Origin: a virus
Reading direction: 5' to 3' (one strand)
IMG/VR virus record: IMGVR_UViG_3300025645_006292
Location: 1-24,312 of that record
DNA length: 24,312 nucleotides
Within the stretch, counting starts at the first letter, position 1. Each line of letters begins with the position of its first letter. Below the pieces are notes generated by a model, which worked only from the letters and a program-made list of their open reading frames with translations, was not told the DNA's origin and did no database searches. Shown in pieces: positions 2,215 to 23,210 of the stretch. The position numbers and the translations under genes were made by a program.

Positions 2215-2782
2215 AATTGTTATCGAATTTGTGTTTTACTTTTTTAATGAATTTATTGTGGATGTTTATACAACCTTGAATGCTTAATTTTAATTCCTCG
2301 GAAGCCGTTCTCCACGGTACAAGTCTATTATTGGTGGTGTTGTAACGAATGTCAATGATTTTTTTTACTCTTGGGTCGTTTTCTTGTTCTAGCATACTAT
2401 TAAAAACGTCGAAAGCCTCCATTTTAGAAAGGATTTCGCATGAATCATCTTCATCAGAAATTTTATTATAAACTTTGTCTATACTTGAAAACCTCTTGTT
2501 TTTCATGGCATTAATCGCATTTAAACACTTCCACTTTGTCTGGTTAGCTAAGAATGTCGAGAACTTACTGTTCTTGTCTGGGTTGTAGTCTAACGCTGAC
2601 TGATATATTGTATAGTCTTTATCATCCAATATAAAGTCCCTATTAACAACAGAATTTTTGTGTTTGGTATATTTGTCCACAATATAAACATATATTCCAG
2701 AGTGCCTATTAATAAGCTCAATTAGACAACTATCGTCGCCGTCTGATTTTATTTTGTTTATGAGTGACAGGTCGCTTTCCAT
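2207..2782 (-). CDS. Sigma70-family-like factor (regions 2 and 4)
   Basis: The product is 191 aa. Residues 48-90 resemble sigma region 2: an acidic segment (DFILDDKDYTIYQSALDYNPDK), then NSKFSTFLANQTKWKCLNAI, matching the family's FxPxxGxKFSTYAxxxIRxAI. Residues 135-185 resemble region 4, with a helix-turn-helix at about 157-182 (WRTASEELKLSIQGCINIHNK) matching the pattern EIAxxLGxSxxxVxxIxxxAxxKL. There is no region 1.1 or 3. This is the minimal layout seen in ECF-type and phage sigma factors, so it may direct host RNA polymerase to phage promoters. It overlaps the dNMP kinase by 25 bases upstream and SSB by 8 bases downstream. Divergence is large, so an adapter or DNA-binding protein that only looks like sigma is possible. 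Confidence 0.7.
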   Translation of the reverse strand: MESDLSLINKIKSDGDDSCLIELINRHSGIYVYIVDKYTKHKNSVVNRDFILDDKDYTIYQSALDYNPDKNSKFSTFLANQTKWKCLNAINAMKNKRFSSIDKVYNKISDEDDSCEILSKMEAFDVFNSMLEQENDPRVKKIIDIRYNTTNNRLVPWRTASEELKLSIQGCINIHNKFIKKVKHKFDNNYV

Positions 2783-3342
2783 ATATCGTAAGTTTCTTGG
2801 TTAATTAGTGAGTTTAGAATTTCGTTGGCGGTTAATTGTATAAGTTTGTCATCATCAAAATTGCCTATTTCGAACTCAAGGTCTACTTCTTTTGCCATGT
2901 TTTTATTGTGGAGTTCTTCATATTCGTTTGCTGGTTTTATACCATCCCTCTTTATAAGCAAGGAAAAACCATTGTTTTTTTTAATCCACCTAAGCTCATT
3001 TGGGAATCTTAAGTCAGTTATAATGTTTACTTGATTATCATACAGACTAGGCTCTATTTTTTCAATCCAAATATTATCATTCAACTTTCTCATTATATCT
3101 GTGCCCCAGCAAACAAGCAGCGGCCTAATCAAATCCTTTTCATTTTTGTCCTTTGTAAAAGCGGAGATACCTGTTTCTTGAATCAAGAACTCATCCAAAG
3201 ACTTTCTGAGTTCAAATGCAAACGACAACCTTTGTGCTTTTATTCCCTGGTCAGCCAGTATCTTTTCGAAGTTTTCACCTAAGGTGTCCTTTCCAGATCC
3301 AGCGTTACCAGCAATCCCTATTATTTTATAATCTAAGTTCAT
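2758..3342 (-). CDS. Deoxynucleoside monophosphate kinase, phage type
   Basis: The product is 194 aa. The N-terminal P-loop GNAGSGKDT (12-20) follows a hydrophobic strand (KIIGIA). The segment NIITDLRFPNELRWIKKN (about 106-123) is the conserved (I/V)xDVRFPNE motif of T4 gp1-like dNMP kinases. CWGTDIMRKLNDNIWI matches the family's GTDxxRxxxxxxxW substrate region. The enzyme phosphorylates dNMPs to dNDPs in the cytoplasm, feeding dNTP synthesis together with the reductase encoded across the divergent region. It is the first gene of the minus-strand run. A promoter and an AAGG Shine-Dalgarno site (3347-3350 on the minus strand, 4 bases before the ATG) support the chosen start. Confidence 0.88.
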   Translation of the reverse strand: MNLDYKIIGIAGNAGSGKDTLGENFEKILADQGIKAQRLSFAFELRKSLDEFLIQETGISAFTKDKNEKDLIRPLLVCWGTDIMRKLNDNIWIEKIEPSLYDNQVNIITDLRFPNELRWIKKNNGFSLLIKRDGIKPANEYEELHNKNMAKEVDLEFEIGNFDDDKLIQLTANEILNSLINQETYDIWKATCHS

Positions 3343-3364
3343 AATACCTTACTGCTTAAACACT

Positions 3365-3392
3365 AGTTTAACACATAGATATTTAGAGTCAA
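3365..3392 (-). promoter_or_regulatory. Sigma70-like promoter for the minus-strand operon
   Basis: On the minus strand, TTGACT (plus 3387-3392) and TAAACT (plus 3365-3370) are separated by 16 bases. Transcription would start near 3358, leaving a leader of about 16 bases that carries AAGG before the dNMP kinase ATG at 3342. Two palindromes overlap it: TTAAAC-ACTA-GTTTAA at 3356-3371, over the -10 and start site, and CAAGAT-GTTT-ATCTTG at 3390-3405, over the -35. Such placement is typical of operators, though no repressor is identified. Confidence 0.55.
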
Positions 3393-3430
3393 GATGTTTA
3401 TCTTGTTTTATTAATAAAAAATATTAATCT

Positions 3431-3536
3431 AATACTGCTTATTAAATAGACTCGTAAAGTACTACTATACGGTAACGTATTTGGTTACCCTTGATTAAAC
3501 ACTTATCGATTAGTAATCTATTTAATAAGTAGTATT
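3431..3536. repeat. 20-bp imperfect inverted repeat with nested palindromes
   Basis: The left arm 3431-3450 and right arm 3517-3536 are reverse complements at 19 of 20 positions, and the mismatch would be a G-U pair in one RNA strand. The 66-base spacer has its own small dyads: AGTACT at 3458-3463, TACG-GTAA-CGTA at 3469-3480, GGTAAC/GTTACC at 3471-3476 and 3484-3489, and GATTA-g-TAATC at 3508-3518, which runs into the right arm. It could form a cruciform or a branched RNA. The function is unknown; origin or regulator binding are the obvious options. Confidence 0.75.
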
Positions 3537-3734
3537 TCTTATCTTATAGTATTTCTAATAGAAGTTCTATAGGATTCCTTATTTTCAATCGTCGAGCACT
3601 TGATTTACGATGATCTTTTTGCTTCCCGTTTTTTTATTATAGTAATCGTTCCACATTTTTTCCAAAAAAAGTTCATTTTTTTTCAACTAAAAAAAGTTAC
3701 TATATTTTCTGGTTGACTGTGACCGAGGAAATGT

Positions 3735-3740
3735 TAAGGT
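3735..3740 (+). promoter_or_regulatory. Shine-Dalgarno site of nrdB
   Basis: AAGGTG lies 7 bases before the ATG at 3748. This is one of very few recognisable ribosome binding sites in the window and supports the nrdB start chosen. Confidence 0.6.
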
Positions 3741-3747
3741 GTAATTT

Positions 3748-4794
3748 ATGTCAGCGACTATATTCGGGGCTAATTCGCGGCCAAAAAACCAATCAACAAT
3801 AACCAAAAAAATAAAAATGAGCATATTCGAGGAGCAAATATCAAGAAAACCTAATCATTATCCGTGGGCAGAAGAATTTATTGAGGTGATGCATAATGGT
3901 TTTTGGACTGATAAGGAATTCAGTTTCTCGTCCGATGTTCAAGATTTCCATATTACAATGGACGATCAACAAAGGGAAATCATAATTAGAACGTTATCAG
4001 CAATCGGTCAGATCGAAGTTGCTGTTAAGAAATTCTGGGCTAAATTAGGAGACAATCTCCCTCACCCATCCCTTACTGACCTTGGTTATGTAATGGCAAA
4101 TGTAGAGGTAATACACAACAATGCTTACGAAAGACTGTTGAAGGTCCTTGGTTTGGAGGATGTATTTGAAGAGAATCTTAAATTAGATTTTATCGAAGGT
4201 AGGGTGAGCTACTTGCGCAAATACACCCATAGGTTTTACAAAGACTCTAAGAAACAATACCTATATGCACTTACATTGTTTACCCTGTTTGTGGAAAATG
4301 TGTCTTTGATGAGTCAGTTCTACGTTATTAATTGGTTCTCAAGAAACAAAAACGTATTAAAAGATACAGAGCAACAGGTTAGATATACAAGGAACGAAGA
4401 AAACATTCATGCTCAAGTTGGAATTAAGATCATAAATACAATAAGAGAAGAGCATCCAGAGCTATTTGATGCAGAACTTGAGGAGAGAATTATTCACGAA
4501 GCTAAAGAAGCTTATATAGCAGAGGCTAAGATTATTGATTGGATGGTTAACGGTATTAATGAGAAAGGTCTCAGCGCTCCAGTGCTTAAAGAATTTATTA
4601 AAGCTAGAATAAATGAATCCCTAGAACAAATTTCATTTAAAAAGGCATTTGATATTGACAACGATCTAATTAAAGATACAATGTGGTTTGAAGAGGAGTT
4701 GATGGGTAACAACTCTACAGATTTCTTCCATTCTCGTCCCGTAGAATATTCAAAAAAATCACAAACATTTGACTTAGATAGCGTATTTGCATGA
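3748..4794 (+). CDS. nrdB: Ribonucleotide reductase class I, beta subunit
   Basis: The product is 348 aa, full length for this four-helix ferritin-like subunit. It holds the metallocofactor that starts radical transfer to the alpha subunit. Visible metal ligands are E120-x-x-H123 (ANVEVIHNNAY), E183 (FVENVSL) and E218-x-x-H221 (NEENIHAQ). The first ligand is most likely E90 in GQIEVAVKKFW, a Glu where E. coli NrdB has Asp. Y127, four residues after H123, sits where the radical tyrosine lies, so the radical site appears kept. The C-terminus FDLDSVFA is the acidic/aromatic tail expected to dock on the alpha subunit. The first 25 residues are an extra basic, low-complexity stretch. The stop overlaps the nrdA start (ATGA), implying coupled, balanced expression. 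Which metals it uses cannot be told from sequence. Confidence 0.95.
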   Translation: MSATIFGANSRPKNQSTITKKIKMSIFEEQISRKPNHYPWAEEFIEVMHNGFWTDKEFSFSSDVQDFHITMDDQQREIIIRTLSAIGQIEVAVKKFWAKLGDNLPHPSLTDLGYVMANVEVIHNNAYERLLKVLGLEDVFEENLKLDFIEGRVSYLRKYTHRFYKDSKKQYLYALTLFTLFVENVSLMSQFYVINWFSRNKNVLKDTEQQVRYTRNEENIHAQVGIKIINTIREEHPELFDAELEERIIHEAKEAYIAEAKIIDWMVNGINEKGLSAPVLKEFIKARINESLEQISFKKAFDIDNDLIKDTMWFEEELMGNNSTDFFHSRPVEYSKKSQTFDLDSVFA

Positions 4795-18241: not shown

Positions 18242-20781
18242 GATACAAAAACCCATTTCCAGTAGGAGTTAAATTACCAGAGATCGTCGTTCCAGACGAT
18301 ACACTAGAGTCCCTCGGTCTCAAACATGGTAGTTCTAGCTTGGAGATACTGAAGCAGTTATGCAGAAAAGGCCTTAGAGACAAATCTTTGACTAAAGCTG
18401 AAAACAAAAAGGACTACTATGATAGGGTTCAGATGGAAATCGACATTCTGGATGATCTCGGTTTTGTGGACTATATACTTCTCAACTGGGACATTATGGA
18501 TTACTGCCAAAGAAGTAAAATCCCTACTGGTGCTGGAAGGGGAAGTGCGGCTGGTAGTTTGGTTTTATTTCTTCTCGGTGTAACTAATATAGACCCAATT
18601 AAATATGAACTATTTTTTGAAAGATTTGTCTCTAAAAGCAGAGCAAGGAAAATTGAGCATGAGGGAGAAGTGTTTCTTGACGGTTCTTTACTCGCTGATA
18701 TTGATAACGATATTTCTTATGATCGCAGGGCTGAAGTTATTAAGTATATTGAAGACAAGTACGAAGGAAGAACTTCCAAGATTTTAACTCTTAACACACT
18801 AAGTTCGAAGCTATGCATGAAAGAATGCGGAAAGATAGTGGAAGAATTATCTGAAATGGATGTCAACCAGATTAGTGACACTATACCTAAGCATTTTGGC
18901 AAAGTCGCAAAATTAGATATTGCTTACGACGAAAGCGAATCTTTTAAAAAGTTTGCTGATAAGCATGAGAGATGTTATAAAATAGCAAAAAAATTAGAAG
19001 GCTTAATTAAAAATACAGGAGTTCACCCTTCTGGAATTTCTATTAGTTATTACAACCAAGAGGATATAATGCCTCTCCAAAAAACGAATGATGGAGCTTT
19101 GGTTTCTGGTTATGATATGGATGACGTTGCCAGCCTTAGCGTTAAGTTCGATATACTTGGACTGAGGACGCTTTCGGTGGTTAATGATACCTGTAACCAA
19201 ATAGGCATCAAAGCCTCTGAGATCGACCCTAGCGACGAAAGCATCTATGCTGCGTTAGCTTGCCTACAGCAACCCAAAGGCTTGTTCCAAATCGAAGCTG
19301 ATGTAAACTTCAAAGTATGCAAGCAGGTTGCCCCCAGAAACCTAGAACAGCTTTCCGCAGTTGTGGCTATTGCCAGACCAGGAGCTTTAGATTTTAAGGA
19401 CAGTTACGCTGAATATGTAAGAACTGGAGAGTTTAATTGTGTGCATGAATTTTTTGATGATATACTTAGTTATACAGGGGGCATTCCTCTTTACCAAGAG
19501 CAGTTAATGAAAATGGCTGTTAAGGTTGGCTTTAGCCTAGATGAGTCAGAGCAGCTTAGAAGGATAGTCGGAAAGAAGAAGGTTGAGGATATGCCAGCTT
19601 GGAAAGCCAAGATTGAAGAAAAAATCAAAGAGAAAAACCTAGATCCAGTTATAGGGGAGGTTTTGTGGAAAGTCGCAGAAGATTCTGCTAATTATTCGTT
19701 TAACAAATCCCACAGTATTTCTTACGCTTACTTGGCGGCGATAACTATCTACCTTAAATTTAACCATCCACAGGAATTCTTTCTTAGTTTACTTAAGATG
19801 GCAAGGTTCGAACCTAACTCTCATGAAGAGATAGCTAAAATATCTCAAGAGCTTTCGTTTTTTGATATAACACTTTTGCCACCAGACTTAAACCTTTCTG
19901 ATTTTGATTTTAAGATCGAAGGCAAAAATATAAGATACGGATTAAACTCCATTAAAGGTGTTTCTGGTAAGATTATCGAATCTCTAATCGAGTTTAGAGA
20001 AAACAACTTTGAAAACAAATATGATATATTTACAGCTGCTAAAGATTGTGGAGTTAATATAGGCACTATGTCTGCGTTTATCCAAGCTGGGCTATTAGAT
20101 TCTTTTGTTACGACTGATCGTTGTAGATTAGTTCTTGAGGCTCAAAGCTTTAATATATTAACGGACAGAGAAAAAAGGAACATAATTGAAGTTGGTGATC
20201 GCTTTAATTATGACGTATTAAATACAATACAGCACTTTAGACAAGAGAATGCTCCAGCTGACGACGGCAGAATTCTATTCGCTGACAGAAGGTTTGGAAC
20301 GTTCAAAAAGAAGTATGATCAATATAAAAAAATATATGAGCAAAACACAAGTCACATAAAATATGCTAACTGGTTCTTTGAAGAAAAACTACTTGGTTAT
20401 AGTTATTCTCACACAATAAGGGATATCTTTAGCGCTGGAGATTCTGTCTCATTTAACACATCAGAGGACATAAGGCGATCATCTTCTAGGAGAAGAGTTA
20501 AATTTGTTGGAACCGTCGTAGATATAACAAAGAGGACAAGCAGAAACGGAAACAAGTACGCTAGATTAGAAATGCAGGATGATTTAGGTCCAGTTTGCGG
20601 CTTGTTTCTCGATTCCGATAGAAATGAAAGGTTGACAGAATATATAAGTTCTGGTAAAAAGTTACCTAAGAAGGGTGACGTCACCATTATTACTGGAGAC
20701 GTTGGAGATGATATTGTGTTTGTAGATTCAATAAACACAATCGAAGAAAAAATTTATATGAAATTATCTGAACTAAAATGA
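18238..20781 (+). CDS. dnaE: Family C DNA polymerase (PolIII alpha core), lacking PHP domain
   Basis: The product is 847 aa, short of the roughly 1,100-1,200 aa of DnaE because the PHP domain is absent; residue 1 falls just after it. The palm has PTGAGRGSAAGSL (97-109, for GPGRGSxAGS), the catalytic pair D156-x-D158 in ADIDNDIS, and the third aspartate D305 in VKFDILGLR. GVHPSGISI (261-269), PLYQEQLMKMA, and FNKSHSISYAYL are the fingers signatures. A helix-hairpin-helix-type region (GLNSIKGVSGKIIESLIEF) precedes a C-terminal OB fold (about 755-835: VKFVGTVVDITKRT, KYARLEMQDDLGPV). About 18 residues (133-150) are inserted before the catalytic pair. I see no clear clamp-binding peptide. Expressed in one unit with the PHP and exonuclease proteins, it is the replicative polymerase. 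Confidence 0.95.
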   Translation: MRYKNPFPVGVKLPEIVVPDDTLESLGLKHGSSSLEILKQLCRKGLRDKSLTKAENKKDYYDRVQMEIDILDDLGFVDYILLNWDIMDYCQRSKIPTGAGRGSAAGSLVLFLLGVTNIDPIKYELFFERFVSKSRARKIEHEGEVFLDGSLLADIDNDISYDRRAEVIKYIEDKYEGRTSKILTLNTLSSKLCMKECGKIVEELSEMDVNQISDTIPKHFGKVAKLDIAYDESESFKKFADKHERCYKIAKKLEGLIKNTGVHPSGISISYYNQEDIMPLQKTNDGALVSGYDMDDVASLSVKFDILGLRTLSVVNDTCNQIGIKASEIDPSDESIYAALACLQQPKGLFQIEADVNFKVCKQVAPRNLEQLSAVVAIARPGALDFKDSYAEYVRTGEFNCVHEFFDDILSYTGGIPLYQEQLMKMAVKVGFSLDESEQLRRIVGKKKVEDMPAWKAKIEEKIKEKNLDPVIGEVLWKVAEDSANYSFNKSHSISYAYLAAITIYLKFNHPQEFFLSLLKMARFEPNSHEEIAKISQELSFFDITLLPPDLNLSDFDFKIEGKNIRYGLNSIKGVSGKIIESLIEFRENNFENKYDIFTAAKDCGVNIGTMSAFIQAGLLDSFVTTDRCRLVLEAQSFNILTDREKRNIIEVGDRFNYDVLNTIQHFRQENAPADDGRILFADRRFGTFKKKYDQYKKIYEQNTSHIKYANWFFEEKLLGYSYSHTIRDIFSAGDSVSFNTSEDIRRSSSRRRVKFVGTVVDITKRTSRNGNKYARLEMQDDLGPVCGLFLDSDRNERLTEYISSGKKLPKKGDVTIITGDVGDDIVFVDSINTIEEKIYMKLSELK

Positions 20782-23210
20782 GTGTATTTAACAACGTGAT
20801 ATTTAAAGACTTTAACTTAACGCCTAGAGCTAAAAAAGCTTACAAATCCGCCTTTGATCTTTCTAAAGAGATGGGGCATAACAATGTCAATAATTTACAT
20901 GTCGTATTCGGTTGTGCTGAAAACATGTCTGGGACCTTAAAAGATCTTATAGAAGATATAGGTTTTAAGTTTAAACCAGAAGACATAGTTGATAAAATAA
21001 ACCAACTCGAAGAAAGGGCAGGAATGAGTGAAAAGTTCTATGCTAACAAAAATTCAGACCCTTGGCATAAAGAAGTTTTAGATGCAATGAATTCTGCTAA
21101 TAAAATTTCGCAGAAGCTTGACCATCATTATGTTGGAATTGAACATATCCTTCTTGGAATATTAGACACATCAATGTATGTTTTCCCAGATATAGGAATC
21201 CAAAGCTTTAGTGATACCTTGGAAAACTATGCCAAGGGAGATCAATCTAATAATCCAGACCCATTATCATTGGACGATTTGTTGGGGGACCTTTCTGACT
21301 TTGTTGAAATTTCAGACCCTCCTAATGAAGAACCTAATAAAATACCTTCTTTTTTAACAAGCTTAAACGATCTTTATTCGGAAGGAAAGCTCCCAGATGT
21401 ATATGGAAGGGACGAGGAAATCAAACTCCTCATAGAAACCATCTCTAAAAAGAACAAAAGTAATGCAATATTAACTGGTGACGCTGGCGTTGGTAAAACA
21501 GCTATAGTAGAAGCTTTGGCTACTAAAATTTGCCAAGCAGATGTTTCCTCTAACCTTTTAGGAATGGAAATTATGAGCGTTGATATTGCTTCTATGTTGT
21601 CTGGCACTCAGTATAGAGGTCAGTTTGAAGCTAAGTTCAAAGACCTCCTTGAAATGGCCAAACAAAACCCCCACATCATTCTTTTCTTTGATGAGATTCA
21701 TACTATATTTGGTGCAGGAGGAAACCAAGAAGGAAGCATCGATGCGGCAAACATGCTAAAACCAATGCTCGCCAGAGGAGAGATTAAATGCATAGGTTCT
21801 ACGACGTCAGACGAATACGAAAAGATATTCAAGAAAGACTCGGCAATGAAAAGAAGGTTTTTTAATATAGAGGTGTCAGAACCTTCGGTAGAGGATACAA
21901 AAAAAATATTATATAATTGCAAATCCAGATACGAAGACTTTCATAATGTTAGATATAGCAAAACAATTATTGATTGTGTTGTAGATTTATCCTCCAACTT
22001 GGTTAGCAATAAAAATTTCCCAGATAAAGCTTTTGATATAATAGACCAAGTAGGTTCTAGAATAAAAATAAAAAATTCTAAGCCGTCCGATGAGCTAGTA
22101 AACAGCCACAAAGAGTTTGTAGACTTTTTATCTAAGGGAGACCAAGATGTTGAAGATGTCAAAGAAAAATTCAACTTGTTTCTCTTGGACTTAAAAAGAT
22201 TAAATGAAGAATCTTATTTAGATCCAGTAACCATTAAAAAGAGCGATATCCTTGAGATTATTTCTGAACATGGAAAAGTTTCTGTTGACCAGATAAAAGA
22301 AAGCAGACAAGGCTTTTCTTCTTTCTCCCAAAGAATGTCTAAGGAAATTTTCGGGCAAGACTCTGTTATTAACAAGGTTAATGACCTACTCAGTTGTGCT
22401 AAAGCTGGATTCACGGATGAAGATAAGCCTTTAGCCAGCATGTTCTTTGTTGGTCCGACCAGTGTCGGGAAAACATACACAGCAAAGAAAATAGCCAAAA
22501 ACTTTTTTGGTAATGAAAATGCCATTATTCAGATAAACATGAGTGAGTTGTATGACAAGACAGGTATTAGCAAACTTATTGGCTCTAATTCTGGCTATGT
22601 CGGCTATGAAGAAGGAGGAATGCTTACTAAGTTTGTTAAGGACAATCCAAACTGCGTTGTTCTTTTTGACGAAGTAGAGAAGGCCGACCCACAAGTTTTA
22701 AACTTATTGCTCCACCTTTTAGATGAGGGTTACATAGAAGACAACAAGCACAACAAGGTTGACTTTTCTAAGTCTATAGTTATTTTAACAAGTAATATAG
22801 GGCACGAAAAAGCCAACAAGCCGAGCATGGGATTTGTTCAAGACGAAGGAGTTAAGTCTGATTCTTACAAGGAGTCAGTAAAGGGAAAGCTTAAACCAGA
22901 ACTTCTTGCTAGAATAAATGATGTACTGGTTTTCGATGACCTTGGAGACTCCGACATCAAAAGAATTATAAAATTTGAGCTTGACAAGATAAAAGATAAA
23001 TTAAAAAAGAAAAACATAAGCATAATTGTTAAAAACACCTCTATAGATTGCATTTTTAACGATATTAAAAACAAAAAGATGCACGTAAGGGATGTAAAAA
23101 GATACGTCAAAGAAAAAGTCCAAGTTCCAATTGCAAAACTAGTTGTCAAAAACTCAAAAACATCAGAGATAATGCTAAAAAGTGTTGACAATAAAATAAG
23201 TATATGCTAA
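20778..23210 (+). CDS. ClpC/ClpA-type AAA+ unfoldase with ClpP-docking loop
   Basis: The product is 810 aa, full length for class 1 Clp/Hsp100. The N domain (1-150) contains two Clp-N repeats (LTPRAKKAYKSAFDLSKEM; HHYVGIEHILLGIL). D1 has Walker A GDAGVGKT (234-241), pore loop GTQYRGQFE and Walker B ILFFDE (301-306). D2 has Walker A GPTSVGKT (559-566), pore loop GYVGY (606-610) and Walker B VVLFDE (627-632). The D1-D2 linker (432-515) is like the short ClpC middle domain and far from the long ClpB one. After SNIG the sequence PSMGFVQDEG places MGF (684-686) where ClpA IGL and ClpC VGF bind ClpP. No clpP is in the window, so it may work with host ClpP or alone. Coupled to the polymerase by ATGA. 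Confidence 0.92.
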   Translation: MSVFNNVIFKDFNLTPRAKKAYKSAFDLSKEMGHNNVNNLHVVFGCAENMSGTLKDLIEDIGFKFKPEDIVDKINQLEERAGMSEKFYANKNSDPWHKEVLDAMNSANKISQKLDHHYVGIEHILLGILDTSMYVFPDIGIQSFSDTLENYAKGDQSNNPDPLSLDDLLGDLSDFVEISDPPNEEPNKIPSFLTSLNDLYSEGKLPDVYGRDEEIKLLIETISKKNKSNAILTGDAGVGKTAIVEALATKICQADVSSNLLGMEIMSVDIASMLSGTQYRGQFEAKFKDLLEMAKQNPHIILFFDEIHTIFGAGGNQEGSIDAANMLKPMLARGEIKCIGSTTSDEYEKIFKKDSAMKRRFFNIEVSEPSVEDTKKILYNCKSRYEDFHNVRYSKTIIDCVVDLSSNLVSNKNFPDKAFDIIDQVGSRIKIKNSKPSDELVNSHKEFVDFLSKGDQDVEDVKEKFNLFLLDLKRLNEESYLDPVTIKKSDILEIISEHGKVSVDQIKESRQGFSSFSQRMSKEIFGQDSVINKVNDLLSCAKAGFTDEDKPLASMFFVGPTSVGKTYTAKKIAKNFFGNENAIIQINMSELYDKTGISKLIGSNSGYVGYEEGGMLTKFVKDNPNCVVLFDEVEKADPQVLNLLLHLLDEGYIEDNKHNKVDFSKSIVILTSNIGHEKANKPSMGFVQDEGVKSDSYKESVKGKLKPELLARINDVLVFDDLGDSDIKRIIKFELDKIKDKLKKKNISIIVKNTSIDCIFNDIKNKKMHVRDVKRYVKEKVQVPIAKLVVKNSKTSEIMLKSVDNKISIC

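Follow-up and report, generated by a model that had tools for sequence, protein, structure and literature searches.

In lambda-type replication origins, iterons and an AT-rich region are activated by transcription. Phage operator regions lie between divergent early promoters and carry palindromic sites, and NrdR boxes are palindromes in front of nrd genes, arranged in pairs with a spacing of 31–32 bp. To our knowledge, origins are hardly known for uncultured phages of ~90–140 kb with their own DnaE-type polymerase, and no description of a replication origin for the lineage studied here was found in the open-licence literature. The origin of the PLE satellite has semi-palindromic repeats bound by RepA_N, according to the part of PMC7145576 used here, and for non-RepA mycobacteriophage prophage origins the corresponding part of PMC7157519 describes a non-coding, transcribed (RNA) phage region that is required for replication.

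The DNA analyzed here, referred to as the window, is a 24,312-bp fragment of an uncultured tailed phage, in which a divergent non-coding region separates a dNMP kinase gene from nrdB (Table 1). The locus resembles a lambda-type origin in having promoter, repeats and AT-rich stretch in that order, at a single place near replication genes; it differs in being non-coding, whereas the lambda iterons lie inside the O gene, in the lack of a known O-like protein, and in the wide dyad that takes the place of direct repeats in the window. Phage operator regions likewise place palindromes between divergent operons, but here the sites are downstream of promoters and accompanied by a wide AT-rich dyad. 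The 16–17-bp palindromes before nrdB recall NrdR boxes; however, they are spaced by ~17–21 bp (by eye), lie ~200 bp from the nrdB promoter, and their motif changes wholesale between relatives, and NrdR boxes were set aside on position and spacing. With the PLE origin, as presented in that part of PMC7145576, the locus shares a non-coding region with semi-palindromic repeats, those of PLE being bound by the initiator, but RepA_N was not found here and PLE is a satellite rather than a phage. Similarly, a non-coding transcribed phage region is common to this locus and the mycobacteriophage origins in the portion of PMC7157519 considered, but those belong to prophage plasmids and lie beside parABS, which was not seen here. 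By analogy with these portions of PMC7145576 and PMC7157519, parts of the kind present in the window can make an origin, neither system being a demonstrated relative.

The record nearest to the window is a 44.8-kb IMG/VR contig, identical across the first 6,500 window bases compared, and the DNA of the intergenic region has no match among GenBank phages. Leftward genes encode Hsp20, a glycosyltransferase, SSB, a sigma-like protein and the dNMP kinase, and rightward genes encode NrdB, NrdA, a RecA/UvsX-type protein, a DnaB-type helicase, primase and a DnaE-type polymerase. The divergent AT-rich setting described in the initial annotation holds, the region, at 405 bp, being longer than any other ORF-free stretch in the window (next 70 bp). 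The same is true in four of four close-group contigs of 45–99 kb (405, 449, 416 and 386 bp), where the next stretch measures at most 316 bp at a contig end and otherwise at most 177 bp; in three contigs outside the close group, the corresponding region is not the largest. A composition switch near 3500 reflects the boundary of a short minus-strand block. Judged from its profile, the sigma-like protein is a strongly diverged sigma-factor relative: the best PDB match of profile A6 is ECF sigma region 2 (E 0.002), Sigma70_r2 matched weakly in 5 of 14 members, and the protein itself has no Pfam or PHROG match and nothing among GenBank phages. To judge from relatives, the conserved start of nrdB is probably the ATG at 3817, not 3748; the leader at 3748–3819 has the elements CAGCG ... 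TCGCGG in common with loci L084 and L087, and GCGA and TCGC could pair.

Table 1. Features of the divergent region and its neighbours in the window
Feature	Position	Strand	Details
SSB gene	1840–2214	−	
Diverged sigma-factor-like protein, 191 aa	2207–2782	−	profile against PDB
Deoxynucleoside monophosphate (dNMP) kinase	2758–3342	−	phrog_139
Divergent non-coding region between dNMP kinase (−) and nrdB (+)	3343–3747		405 bp, GC 27%
Promoter-like TTGACT-16-TAAACT, dNMP kinase operon	3365–3392	−	promoter scan
Left arm of main dyad	3431–3450	+	AATACTGCTTATTAAATAGA
Alternative arm, competing with main stem	3457–3466		pairs with 3528–3537
CG-centred site 1, TACTATACGGTAACGTA	3463–3479		relatives have TACTATACCGTATAGTA here; alignment
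Small inner palindrome GGTAAC-GTATTTG-GTTACC	3471–3489		arms 3471–3476/3484–3489
CG-centred site 3, CACTTATCGATTAGTA	3500–3515		relatives: TACTAATCGATAAGTA / TACTAATCGTAAAGTA
Right arm of main dyad	3517–3536	+	TCTATTTAATAAGTAGTATT; complementary to left arm at 19/20
Promoter-like TTGGAA-18-TATAAT, leftward through dyad	3636–3665	−	promoter scan
Probable nrdB promoter TTGACT-16-TAAGGT	3713–3740	+	by eye; not called by scanner
nrdB	3748–4794	+	

The intergenic region contains a 20-bp inverted repeat with a 66-base spacer, as had been noted earlier, and the only unpaired position of its arms is a G opposite a T. Including an inner extension of lower quality, the dyad comprises 27 nt at 85%. Its score of 17 was reached by none of 1000 dinucleotide shuffles of the 405-bp region (best 15, mean 8.1), and it is the top-ranked inverted repeat both of the 24-kb window and of the near-identical 44.8-kb contig, with a DNA fold z of −4.2. 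The smaller palindromes reported for the spacer are represented by the GGTAAC/GTTACC palindrome, and the alternative pairing said to compete with the main stem is likewise present (Table 1). A search for further copies of the dyad sequence GGTAACGTATTTGGTTACC found none in the window at up to three mismatches and none in the genome contigs searched; among viral contigs, it matched only the near-identical contig and one coding sequence. This last match, a second exact copy of the window's 19-mer at L253 535–553, lies in what by eye is a microvirus-type capsid gene and was rejected as a meaningful second site, being by the same judgment a coding coincidence.

Three CG-centred near-palindromes within the dyad align among the window, L004, L006 and L009, the second being the most degraded in the window. 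A strong promoter match runs leftward through these sites, and no terminator was found in the window's intergenic region. The probable nrdB promoter is backed by 86% conservation of the stretch 3676–3724 in L005, L007 and L008. In each of six contigs scanned, the repeat motifs are nearly confined to the intergenic region, with scattered single weak matches elsewhere: GGATACGTA occurs once in contig G009, within the region, TACTNNNCGNNNAGTA has two exact occurrences in G004, both within the region, and one further place outside at one mismatch, and at one mismatch there is none in G005.

Among the close relatives, the dyad is a conserved feature whose position is kept while its sequence turns over. 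A wide dyad (spacer 35–85) occupies the same place in all seven close-group intergenic regions, with different arm sequences. The initial annotation had named a lack of conservation in relatives, together with a skew minimum elsewhere, as refuting its proposal; of these two, the lack of conservation is not what is seen. It is the best wide repeat in the window, L004, L005, L006 and L009, and the second best in L084 and L087. Of 200 shuffles, 0 (window), 38 (L004), 1 (L005), 0 (L006) and 26 (L009) reached the best repeat, so that the wide dyads of L004 and L009 taken alone are not significant; the counts for L084 (1) and L087 (4) refer to another repeat of the same region. BLAST against the close relatives found almost no alignable DNA in the dyad region, the matches being the stretch adjoining nrdB. 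L006 has a 30-bp match to window 3453–3482 in inverted orientation (90%), which includes CG-centred site 1.

Wider relatives were taken from 80 of at least 598 NrdB loci and 80 of 238 dNMP-kinase loci, with regions read in part of these, and have an equivalent transcribed unit, in which a strong sigma-70-type promoter is followed by iteron-like repeats or CG-centred palindromes, an AT-rich dyad and a stop. Two types can be distinguished. In type A, a minus-strand promoter reads through palindromes toward a sigma-like or dNMP-kinase gene; in type B, the nrdB promoter is preceded by a unit that starts with a plus-strand promoter and continues with repeats, an AT-rich stem-loop and a terminator-like hairpin, and in which no ORF was seen by eye. 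The type-B structure is maintained through compensating changes, with four compensated pairs (three in the AT stem, one in the terminator-like hairpin; 17 cells) and a covariation score of 0.247 versus 0.089 in shuffles, none of 500 reaching 0.247, in an alignment of 12 sequences, some of them closely related. The type-B model R1 matches L028, L010 and L011, all outside model building, and does not match the window. A pseudoknot joining the type-B loop to repeats upstream of it, examined by eye, was not supported in all members.

The kind of element follows the type of sigma-like gene. Among 89 regions (88 loci and the window; several are near-duplicates and hence not independent), 62 have a type-A and 22 a type-B sigma-like gene, and in 5 none was found. 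R1 matched 0/62 type-A and 20/22 type-B regions, missing L035 and L039, while all type-A and 9 of the type-B regions matched a minus-strand promoter at 10/12 or better; the full 12/12 was reached in 40 and 0, respectively, that of L009 being probably the dNMP-kinase promoter. Because L010 and L011 combine a window-like nrdB (89%) with a sigma-like gene and an element of type B, the element travels with the left gene block. This co-segregation could be due simply to physical adjacency.

To distinguish DNA from RNA function, we compared fold z values of transcribed strands and their complements. The mean difference was +0.50 for type B (15 regions) and −0.05 for type A (17 regions), the transcribed strand folding no better. 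Since the fold has no strand preference and the repeats are nearly confined to this region, a protein-binding DNA element is favoured, rather than a structured RNA or a regulon-wide operator; in the latter case, the same sites would recur at other promoters.

The intergenic region is thus tentatively viewed as a candidate replication origin or initiator-binding module, a cis-acting, protein-binding element at the DNA level, with a probability somewhat below even. In such a module, with the AT-rich wide dyad enclosing the CG-centred sites, a phage-coded protein would bind these, and the strong sigma-70-type promoter would read through them. Transcription and protein binding together could then open the dyad, so that the DnaB-type helicase, the primase and the DnaE-type polymerase that the phage itself encodes in the window could load. 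The neighbouring SSB and dNTP-supply genes were counted for this reading, and no candidate initiator was found among the 20 window proteins scanned.

Tests of origin properties gave mixed results. The initial annotation had pointed to cumulative GC skew, which lends the proposal no support: among 12 contigs, G009 alone has its detrended minimum at the region (50 bp off), the other 11, including the closed circle G010, having it 24–62 kb away. The ends of G009 (L188–L193) and G010 (L194–L200) overlap, giving circles of 111,103 and 139,274 bp, and as these are the only closed circles among the 12, detrending is unsafe in ten. In most contigs GC skew simply tracks gene strand, and the GC3 skew of same-direction genes shows no consistent change across the region (six contigs). 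An AT-rich, easily melted segment, typical of iteron-type theta origins, is found in type A (ranks 2–50), whereas type-B regions do not stand out in ease of melting. The region ranks 2 in the window's 44.8-kb contig; the remaining three close-group contigs give ranks 2, 13 and 50, the other four type-A contigs 2, 4, 10 and 37, and five type-B contigs 92–279. Significant iteron-like direct repeats, with 0/60 shuffles as good, occur in 8 of 26 regions (one, L041, of low complexity), spaced by 26 bp in L101, L212, L080 and L028, 13 bp in L211 and 20 bp in L097. No direct repeat of the window reaches significance (14/60 shuffles as good). Of the origin proposed earlier, the dyad and its conservation in place stand, while the skew minimum coincides with the region in a single contig and a regulator site is nearly as likely.

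That regulator site would be an operator, its palindromes being the targets of a phage regulator (the sigma-like protein, perhaps, or another early protein). By blocking or timing the leftward early promoter, this regulator would control the divergent operons. The operator reading ranks just below the origin or initiator module, and we regard it as a serious possibility at around one chance in three. The minus-strand promoter match throughout type A, complete in most of these loci, agrees with such control, as does the way in which the element kind tracks the sigma-like gene type even in L010 and L011, and strong, fast-changing palindromes with a motif nearly limited to one locus would suit autoregulation. 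However, in type B the promoter upstream of the repeats is on the plus strand and directed away from the sigma-like gene, with a terminator-like hairpin at the end, so the repeats would not control that gene; in addition, adjacency may account for the co-segregation, and an operator has no need for an AT-rich wide dyad.

If the unit were transcribed and its fold acted as RNA, in a structured small RNA or 5′ leader, one would expect what type B has, namely a promoter, a covarying stem-loop whose loop is conserved, and a terminator-like hairpin; the RNA fold z of −6.2 on the plus strand in the window would also be expected. This is unlikely, as complements fold as well as transcribed strands, the better-folding plus strand of the window is opposite to the TATAAT promoter adjoining nrdB, an Rfam scan of the window and 8 relatives found nothing, and the window has neither a terminator in this region nor an R1 match. 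A packaging start, partition site or recombination site would fit a single-copy, palindromic, non-coding locus, but seems improbable: no integrase, ParAB or terminase was among the 20 window proteins scanned, which are part of the window's genes, and in the loci read the locus adjoins RNR and dNMP kinase or sigma-like genes. Consideration of telomere-resolution, attachment and packaging sites brought no positive evidence. Finally, a chance fold of AT-rich DNA might be suspected from the dyads of L004 and L009, but the 1000 shuffles, the constant position in the seven regions and the type-B covariation leave it hardly credible.

Should the candidate origin be correct, a positional rule (the divergent region beside nrdB and sigma-like/SSB genes) would make origins nameable and testable across many phage contigs; should the region be an operator, it would indicate where the early switch of these phages lies. 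A more speculative and rather doubtful extension is a class of transcription-coupled phage origins with a constant architecture, running from a promoter through palindromic or iteron repeats and an AT-rich dyad to a stop. Their sequence, and even the strand that is transcribed, would change in step with the adjacent sigma-like factor, as if the site and its initiator or sigma co-evolved as one exchangeable module.

Two further stretches were recorded in passing. G010 has 1.7 kb without ORFs of at least 60 aa at 19822–21518 (L194/L195). In L101, where the gene on the right is a different one (a class II RNR, by eye), the equivalent place at 3671–4000 contains two-and-a-half 26-bp repeats and an AT-rich stretch.
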